Below, piece by piece: positions 18,101 through 35,013 of a stretch of DNA of 64,000 nucleotides; position 1 is the first letter of the stretch, and each line of letters opens with the position of its first letter. The position numbers were made by a program, and so were the translations under genes. This DNA comes from Promethearchaeota archaeon Loki_b32. Its GTDB lineage: Archaea > Asgardarchaeota > Lokiarchaeia > Sigyniarchaeales > SOKP01. The stretch lies in contig NJBH01000017.1 in NCBI GenBank assembly GCA_005223125.1, positions 1 to 64,000 of the forward strand. Reading direction: 5' to 3'. The notes beneath the pieces were generated by a model. It did not search any database. It saw nothing but the letters and a program-made list of their open reading frames with translations, and was not told the DNA's origin.

Positions 18101-18815
18101 CCAATGTATCACAGTTTTTTATTTTGTAGAAAATTTTAGTTAAAATTCTAAGAGTTTCTGTAATCTCATTACTCTGTAAATTTTTTGAAGATTTAAACAT
18201 AAAATCTTCATACATTTTATTAAAGTAAAATTGTAGATTCTCATCGAAATCTAGGTTTGAATTTCGTCTGATATATTCAAAAAAGAATTGTTTTGGACTT
18301 TCGGAATCTTTTATTTCTTTTAATTCAAGGAATTTGTCAAAACGGAATTTATCTGATTGATTCGATAGAAATTTGTAATTCAAAAATCTTTCTCTTATGA
18401 AAAGGCCCCATTCTATAACCGAGGTGAATTCTTGTAAATCAATTTCTACAAATTGGTTAATAGCAAAATTAATGAGATTTTTTTCTTTTAGATTATTCGG
18501 GATAAAAGTAAGATAAGCACTTTGAAGTAATAGAAAAGGAAAGAACTTTCTATAATTTTTAAAAAGTTTAATATGATATATATCATCTCTTATGGATCTA
18601 TTCACTCCGTAACTATGTAATCTTGTATCTGAATCTCTGTTCTCATTTACTTCATCAACGACATGTATTTTTACTTTTTTGTTGATTACATCTAAATTTA
18701 AATAAGCTTTTAACTCATTCATTAGATAAATGAAAATCTGATTTATCTTAATAGGATCTTCCATATTAGATAATTCTTTCAACTTATCTAAATTAAGAGA
18801 GTTAACCAAATTCAT
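15150..18815 (-). CDS. Very large orphan protein (1221 residues), function unknown
   Basis: One uninterrupted 3.7-kb frame in very AT-rich DNA, which is itself strong evidence of coding. The product is rich in Phe, Tyr, Ile, Asn and Lys and appears mostly alpha-helical. I see no signal peptide, no membrane helix longer than short hydrophobic patches, no nucleotide-binding motif and no zinc cluster. The N-terminal region contains an HVVDEVNENRDS stretch; the C-terminal 250 residues have mixed beta-like segments (FIYEIEGEYYIHGF). It is transcribed alone, with over 250 bases of non-coding DNA on each side. I do not recognise it; a lineage-restricted cytoplasmic protein is the safest description. 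Confidence 0.75.
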   Translation of the reverse strand: MNLVNSLNLDKLKELSNMEDPIKINQIFIYLMNELKAYLNLDVINKKVKIHVVDEVNENRDSDTRLHSYGVNRSIRDDIYHIKLFKNYRKFFPFLLLQSAYLTFIPNNLKEKNLINFAINQFVEIDLQEFTSVIEWGLFIRERFLNYKFLSNQSDKFRFDKFLELKEIKDSESPKQFFFEYIRRNSNLDFDENLQFYFNKMYEDFMFKSSKNLQSNEITETLRILTKIFYKIKNCDTLEGFHNYFNNFKKQKIIQTDLSSRSFRKNLRWINKYSYITPSYYYDWKAINMAIITCHLKFNPLLEKAKIDKIINQMPFLIMPKLSITNFTVELSAYFVIPRIYIKDLVDMLEEMERFGYIIKKHCSLAKKYVFSLNLNYFRESYKNGQIIDFKKKRYLEDFELEFIQNYNKDFNKPNLTLLDFLILERIRFFSYVGINFSRKREISNIIKSDHSNFFIGENSLIEELENTLKILIDSPELRKEFLNFLERNQNFGFFYIKDELEKWVNYFKIIEKESKDTNRMNNFIEFKEFIEKENIIQSIEESNIFDHIDSNSFAFKNLFLNYLNSSDKYTKDVEKLRIFCEFLKLCSNLKIFSIKSIKKLINDPNLLINITKTKKSCLRSLKKNNKTYDISSKTINLKIDEFINKDPKIIKPYLIATIWTNSVASYFPQIILKNSPEVRATIYKIKNYFPKSYFYETIDLFSSQEFIFLQLFIPYLNNNEKISLISIIFKIFKENIISFKRYSWDGFLHTFSRKDFYDFNKKEFFYTKDLFGQFFLYAKSICGEELKNVKEKSGNTVKYWPIKENIANLIKKINKRIRSESISFKPIDIQKLIHFHLNLEKHLMNIEEFQIIKKENFFRQYIKSIKLLPAWQNFGLGEYSLYITPFDVDDIDLKLLFTNTFQKIKHIASIDSSKSMFINYIFPYNKPNSSYLNWLRSKNKIREYCLFTIKSISQIFHFNYNLSSNGWYLDSNNFNTYIQNILFNPNYRIQTSEVKHFEIGDLINSDHYKPDSSYFNALLHIYNWHSIDIKKNLNIINQSIFDEIQALIQKKIIFPFITPKNLGLNETIHFLLLNLKKDTVDILKYIFQYFNLGFIYEIEGEYYIHGFNKKKKIYSGLMIKLYLPDCELAEFLRIFEYIFQYLKVEKYLILTDLVKGDSIIKSVYGNNNFLEKYNPLQNLIWDTKTEKWMNHKLFSKNFEYLYPELFLKQKDGIMRTKADL

Positions 18816-34192: not shown

Positions 34193-34834
34193 TTGAATGT
34201 GAATGAATTTATGAAACCATGGTTATTTGACATATTAGCATGTCCTATTGATAAACAATTTCCATTAAAATTATATATTTTTTCTTTTGAAAATAAACCA
34301 GAAGAATTTCAATCTATTATTGATATTTATAAAAACAGAGATATCAACATTATTAAAAAAGAAAAAATAATTGAGGTTTTTCAAGAAAATGACGAATATT
34401 TCTTAAGGGATAACATAGTCATTGAAAAAACCAAACTTAAATCCTATCTTGAGTTAATAATTTCGAGTATAAATGAATTTGAAAATGTCTTTAATAATTC
34501 TACAAACCAATTGAGTAAAAAAAGTTTTCAAATCATAAATTCTGAAGTTAAATCTAAAATTTTAGAACTTTTTAAAGATTTAAAATTCCATCATATTGAA
34601 GATATATTTCCTGAGTTATATTTTATAAATAAAGTAAAATTAGACATTGAAATTGAATCAGGTATATTATTTTGCAGCAAATGTAACCGTTGGTATCCTA
34701 TTATAGATACAATTCCACAGATGCTCCCTGATAAGTATCGTGATGAAAGAAAAGAAATTGAATTCCTTGAAAGCAATAAAAATTTATTAGATGAAAAATT
34801 TTTTAATCAAGATCTTAAACCATTTAATATTTAA
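34193..34834 (+). CDS. Trm112-like zinc-ribbon protein with central insertion
   Basis: A 213-residue protein that starts (TTG at 34193; GTG 34199 or ATG 34211 also possible) 6 bases after the ribophorin I-like gene. The ends form a Trm112 domain: PWLFDILACPIDKQFPLKL at the N-terminus and ILFCSKCNRWYPIIDTIPQM near residue 165, with C17 and a CxxC pair as zinc ligands. Between them is about 130 residues of helical insertion, larger than in yeast or bacterial Trm112. Trm112 activates several methyltransferases that modify tRNA, rRNA and release factors. The partner here is unknown; co-transcription with a glycosylation gene may be accidental. Confidence 0.75.
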   Translation: MNVNEFMKPWLFDILACPIDKQFPLKLYIFSFENKPEEFQSIIDIYKNRDINIIKKEKIIEVFQENDEYFLRDNIVIEKTKLKSYLELIISSINEFENVFNNSTNQLSKKSFQIINSEVKSKILELFKDLKFHHIEDIFPELYFINKVKLDIEIESGILFCSKCNRWYPIIDTIPQMLPDKYRDERKEIEFLESNKNLLDEKFFNQDLKPFNI

Positions 34835-34896
34835 GAATTAAATAACATAAAATCTATGAACTGTTTCAAATACAAACTCTTAGCCCGGTGGTGTAG

Positions 34897-34926
34897 ATTA
34901 ATACATATATTATGTATTGAGTAAAT
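34897..34926 (+). other. tRNA-Gln intron 1, in the D loop (30 bases)
   Basis: The insertion after position 15 of the tRNA folds into a long hairpin (34898-34907 with 34911-34920, about 10 pairs). Cutting at AG|A and AT|T, each in a 3-base bulge, restores the D loop AGTGGCCAA. The central helix between the two bulges is weak (one mismatch, two G-T pairs), so this is a relaxed bulge-helix-bulge site. Confidence 0.75.
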
Positions 34927-34970
34927 TGGCCAAGCATTTGGGGCTTTGAACCCCGCGACCACGGTTCGAA

Positions 34971-34999
34971 TATTAAAAAGGTTTCTGATTAATCGAAAT
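34971..34999 (+). other. tRNA-Gln intron 2, in the T loop (29 bases)
   Basis: A textbook bulge-helix-bulge. The outer T stem is followed by a central 4-base helix TTCG (34965-34968) with CGAA (34994-34997). Bulges are AAT (34969-34971) and ATT (34998-35000), and the inner helix is ATTAA (34972-34976) with TTAAT (34989-34993). Cleavage after the second base of each bulge gives the 7-base T loop TTCGAAT. Confidence 0.88.
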
Positions 35000-35013
35000 T
35001 CCGTGCCGGGCTA

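Follow-up and report, generated by a model that had tools for sequence, protein, structure and literature searches.

We found that a glutamine tRNA gene at positions 34882–35013 (plus strand) of the window, the whole 64-kb stretch of DNA analysed here, is interrupted in both the D loop and the T loop. Very probably it is a functional Lokiarchaeon tRNA-Gln(UUG) gene with two introns of the bulge–helix–bulge (BHB) type, both of which EndA would cut out and whose exons RtcB would join, the introns coming from a pool of ~29–31-nt units that is still turning over. The two insertions could be read from the sequence, and the coordinates, exon order, intron lengths and insertion positions are all as given in an initial annotation of this DNA:

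34882–34896, plus strand: exon 1, with the acceptor 5′ strand, positions 8–9, the D-stem 5′ strand, A14 and G15 (read from the sequence)
34897–34926, plus strand: intron of 30 nt in the D loop, separating G15 from Y16 (site 15/16; orthologues with a single base there, homologous introns of 29–31 nt in relatives, structure kept in 8 of 8)
34927–34970, plus strand: exon 2, with the rest of the D arm, the anticodon arm, the variable region, the T-stem 5′ strand and T54 to A59
34946–34948, plus strand: anticodon TTG in exon 2, preceded by U33 at 34945
34971–34999, plus strand: intron of 29 nt in the T loop, separating position 59 from 60 (site 59/60; in a set of 26 homologues, 8 of the 9 inner-helix pairs show compensatory changes)
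35000–35013, plus strand: exon 3, with position 60, the T-stem 3′ strand, the acceptor 3′ strand and discriminator A73

Joining the exons (34882–34896, 34927–34970 and 35000–35013) gives AGCCCGGTGGTGTAGTGGCCAAGCATTTGGGGCTTTGAACCCCGCGACCACGGTTCGAATCCGTGCCGGGCTA, a 73-nt tRNA that ends at discriminator A73, with CCA not encoded. The rebuilt molecule is a complete tRNA-Gln (TTG), as had been proposed: it has the tRNA-Gln(UUG) cloverleaf, the anticodon UUG and an archaeal tRNA-Gln sequence, with orthologues across the family. It differs by only three or four mismatches from the uninterrupted UUG genes of relatives (L019, L037, L039 and L042–L044), and exact removal of the T-loop intron thus yields a normal tRNA. 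Uninterrupted genes of relatives also begin with the exact 15-mer of exon 1.

The T-loop intron lies in a canonical archaeal BHB at 59/60, with 3-nt bulges, a 4-bp central helix and flanking helices on either side. As initially described, the motif is of the 3-4-3 form with a 5-bp inner helix; its outer helix is the T stem:

34965–34968, plus strand: 5′ strand of the central helix, TTCG, positions 54–57, pairing with CGAA at 34994–34997
34969–34971 and 34998–35000, plus strand: the two bulges, AAT and ATT

The minimum-energy fold of this motif is shifted to an adjacent register, in which the central helix has 5 bp and the inner helix 4 bp. From the window sequence alone, the intron boundary could be shifted by one base. 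The insertion is nevertheless fixed at 59/60 because the first intron base is A in most relatives, which excludes such a shift. We aligned 26 distinct tRNA-Gln introns, all of 29 nt and without gaps. In this set, which omits three introns of other lengths (L075, L086 and L104), 90.4% of cells were paired across the T stem, TTCG/CGAA and a 9-bp inner helix; taken separately, the T stem was 100% paired, the central helix 98% and the inner helix 82%. An earlier count, of 21 introns, gave 94.7%; it omitted five from CUG genes, in which the inner stem pairs poorly. Pairing fell to 30–47% when the partners were slid, and only 0.04% of trials with shuffled intron bases kept the architecture. Changes were found on both sides in eight of the nine inner pairs, and the covariation score was reached by none of 500 shuffles. 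The BHB at 59/60 is maintained by compensatory changes in these 26 homologous introns.

The D-loop intron lies in a relaxed form of the same motif:

34891–34894, plus strand: 5′ strand of the central helix, GTGT, positions 10–13, pairing with GTAA at 34921–34924 through three pairs and one mismatch
34898–34920, plus strand: inner hairpin of the intron, 9 bp with a 5-nt loop

The strong inner hairpin and weak central helix recognized at the outset are both present. The central helix has 3 bp, two of them G–U, its fourth pair is mismatched and an outer helix is not evident, so the motif at 15/16 is not a strict 3-4-3 BHB but a relaxed, HBh′-like one. We compared eight distinct homologues of the same length. 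The three central pairs (U11–A, G12–C/U and U13–G/A) were paired in all eight introns, with G10 usually unpaired, and the window carries the weakest form of this helix among the homologues, the G12–U version with two G–U pairs and the mismatch. The 9-bp inner helix was 93% paired and the motif overall 88.5% paired, versus 29–55% in slid controls. The covariation score was reached by 2 of 500 shuffles, and 0.02% of trials with shuffled intron bases kept the architecture. The motif was absent from the minimum-energy fold of the whole precursor.

Alignment with tRNA-Gln genes of relatives, which the initial annotation had recommended, showed that in orthologous loci from a family of 65 genomes the introns are present or absent as exact units. 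The middle-exon pattern had matches in 35 of these genomes and the 5′-exon pattern in 55, the latter including some second tRNA-Gln genes and at least one chance match (L095). Directly upstream of the window gene lies a conserved neighbour:

34193–34834, plus strand: Trm112-like open reading frame (Pfam PF03966, E 8.1e-10)

A Trm112-like gene precedes the tRNA in 28 of the 30 tRNA-Gln loci that were fetched, that of the window included, and these loci are therefore orthologues. Some are uninterrupted, with a length of exactly 73 nt. Others are interrupted in the D loop only, in the T loop only or in both, show a third, variable-region insertion, or carry all three. This precise presence and absence fixes the intron boundaries. 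In two other genomes of the genus (G025 and G032) the gene recurs beside the same neighbour, and its introns there are almost identical. Insertions in the D loop, variable region and T loop occur together in the three-intron tRNA-Gln(UUG) genes L024 (genome G018) and L035 (genome G035).

To describe turnover, we mapped intron states onto a tree built from the Trm112-like proteins of 28 loci; many of its deep forks are weak and it does not settle the direction of change. On this tree the T-loop intron changed state at least six times, the variable-region intron at least twice and the D-loop intron at least once. The CUG gene of G027 and both tRNA-Gln genes of G061 likewise have an intron at 15/16, which suggests more than one gain. 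Family tRNA-Gln introns at 15/16, 37/38, the variable region and 59/60 are strikingly uniform in length, mostly 28–32 nt. A phylum-wide search gave few matches outside the family, with a narrow pattern that would overlook genes that have diverged or contain introns. Two adjacent, different tRNA genes (L112 and L113; G000:C4:18299–18339 and 18442–18482, minus strand) carry near-identical T-loop introns. This likeness suggests that introns are copied between tRNA genes, a pattern that agrees with accounts of intron transposition in Thermoproteales (PMC4090602). The best explanation is that the introns form a pool of ~29–31-nt units gained and lost between closely related Lokiarchaea. A wider proposal, which we put forward tentatively and hold with somewhat less than even confidence, is that the Lokiarchaeial tRNA set is riddled with mobile introns of nearly uniform length (~29–31 nt) that spread between genes and sites, 15/16 in the D loop among them, and still turn over within one genus, an Asgard counterpart of the Thermoproteales expansion that arose with a loop-bearing EndA.

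We considered whether the gene might instead be a decaying pseudogene with two random insertions, CAA being read by another tRNA-Gln; this is very improbable. ARAGORN and Rfam at its gathering threshold, two general searches, did not report the gene and gave no matches in the window, which might be taken to favour decay, as might the weak D-loop central helix. Such a miss, however, is expected because the tRNA is broken in its D and T loops. Every exon position is intact, and the lengths, positions and structures of the insertions are kept in relatives with compensatory changes. The 4.13-Mb genome (71 contigs, estimated to be 95.5% complete with 4.6% contamination) also offers no obvious substitute. 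A second, uninterrupted tRNA-Gln(UUG) gene, which the initial annotation had named as a sign of a pseudogene, was looked for in this assembly by pattern searches, and neither an uninterrupted nor any other second UUG gene was found. The sole other tRNA-Gln in the assembly (L072) has the anticodon CUG and is itself interrupted twice, at 37/38 and 59/60; its T-loop intron occupies the same site as that of the window gene, and the two sequences are not alike. By the established wobble rules, a tRNA with anticodon CUG should not decode CAA, which is the main glutamine codon in nine open reading frames of the window (93 CAA versus 13 CAG). Because it is the only UUG gene found, the window gene should therefore be functional.

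Most tRNA-Gln genes of the family, UUG and CUG, have C33 (loop CCTTGAA or CCCTGAA; loci L018–L047 and L072–L111). U33 is near-universal in tRNAs, and the window gene, which has it, is nested among C33 relatives, with at least three changes at this position on the Trm112-like tree. C33 has been reported for the tRNA-Cys of Sulfolobales (PMC7668247).

As improbable as the pseudogene reading is the view that the insertions stay in place and enlarge the D and T arms of a working but unusual tRNA. Both do fold as hairpins atop the arms, but the T-loop insertion, by pairing with T54–G57, would abolish the T loop and its D-loop contact. The conserved two-bulge geometry is, moreover, a known EndA substrate, and there are relatives entirely without insertions. 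An artefact of metagenome assembly or binning is the least credible reading of all, since, despite the 71 contigs and the estimated 4.6% contamination, the gene lies inside a contig (C11) that holds the whole 64-kb window and is shared, with its introns and neighbour, by G025 and G032. The pseudogene, retained-insert and artefact readings were rejected on these grounds.

A functional gene with two spliced introns would need an endonuclease of broad specificity, as the initial annotation had pointed out, and the type of EndA in the genome supports this. The genome has two EndA-type genes. The alpha protein has A. pernix EndA as its best match (3p1z, E 2.3e-35) and keeps the Tyr, His and Lys residues. 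Its segment FFGSPLGISKPR aligns to the crenarchaea-specific loop, with a lysine aligned to K44 that is present in all 15 Lokiarchaeal alphas. Relatives that are 78–83% identical to the alpha occur in Candidatus Lokiarchaeota and Lokiarchaeia records, which marks the host as a Lokiarchaeon and bears out the Asgard origin assumed at first. Insertion of this loop broadens the specificity of a narrow enzyme, and its lysine is required (PMC6379350). The second EndA-type protein aligns to M. jannaschii EndA and has Ser in place of the catalytic His, which fits a structural beta subunit. At the level of sequence comparison, the genome thus encodes a catalytic alpha with the loop lysine and a separate, non-catalytic beta, a pair that would be expected to form an α2β2 EndA able to cut relaxed motifs. 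RtcB is also encoded (E 1e-170).

From these components we infer that both introns are almost certainly removed by RNA splicing. The precursor would be transcribed whole, and a heterotetrameric α2β2 EndA would cut both bulges of each motif, the strict BHB at 59/60 and the relaxed BHB without a firm outer helix at 15/16, after which RtcB would ligate the exons. In S. tokodaii, EndA cuts the D-arm introns of tRNA-Glu at the sites predicted for them (PMC4307357). We found no support for the suggestion that the order of cutting could matter: the two motifs use separate exon stretches (positions 10–16 and 49–65) and relatives carry either intron alone, so that no obligatory order is indicated.

Placing the gene in its genome changes how unusual it appears. 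In a hand count from an incomplete list of Rfam tRNA matches and pattern matches, inspected by eye, we recorded ~32 archaeal-type tRNA loci; ~24 of these seem to be interrupted, and in at least eight the T loop is affected. The initial claim that the introns sit at rare positions therefore fails for this lineage, in which about three quarters of the inspected tRNA genes are interrupted: archaea in general seldom have introns at these positions, but in this genome they are ordinary. One tRNA gene with anticodon GAT (L129; G000:C61:82706–82768, minus strand) seems to have a very unusual interruption of ~40 bases after the acceptor stem, near 7/8. Another locus (L115; G000:C68:23145–23294, minus strand) holds uninterrupted, bacterial-looking Ile(GAT) and Ala(TGC) tRNA genes in tandem, and the 33-kb contig that carries it may be contamination.

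These results extend to Lokiarchaeia the richness in tRNA introns reported for two other Asgard lineages. A set of close orthologues that differ in which fixed sites hold an intron is a good system for studying the gain and loss of tRNA introns, and these Asgard archaea are predicted to have an α2β2 endonuclease of broad specificity. Since genes of this sort escape common gene finders, Asgard genomes will seem poor in tRNAs.

The two other Asgard lineages are Atabeyarchaeia and Freyarchaeia, in which 92–95% of tRNA genes have introns, often non-canonical, and over half have several (PMC11291895). As here, most tRNA genes are interrupted, often at non-canonical sites; that study differs from our analysis in its lineages, and its passages on tRNA introns contain no comparison of homologous introns, structure counts, EndA analysis or Lokiarchaeial tRNA-Gln. 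In Thermoproteales such as Pyrobaculum, too, BHB introns are short, occupy non-canonical sites (59/60 among them), number up to three per gene and are gained rapidly (PMC4090602, PMC4033280), but these organisms are hyperthermophilic crenarchaea, unlike this Lokiarchaeon. Site 59/60 is listed for other archaea, whereas 15/16 is not named in the open-ended list of the same review (20/21, 22/23, 25/26, 29/30, 30/31, 45/46, 53/54, 56/57, 59/60, etc.; PMC4090602). The S. tokodaii tRNA-Glu resembles the window gene in having D-arm introns in BHB-like motifs, but it is of another isotype and its cleavage by EndA was shown by experiment (PMC4307357). The α2β2 EndA of Aeropyrum pernix (3p1z/3ajv; PMC6379350) combines an alpha bearing Tyr-His-Lys and the loop lysine with a separate beta, as the Lokiarchaeal pair appears to do, the latter being known here from sequence alone. 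Twice-interrupted tRNA genes are already known from other archaea, including other Asgards, and the Lokiarchaeial tRNA-Gln is a further case.
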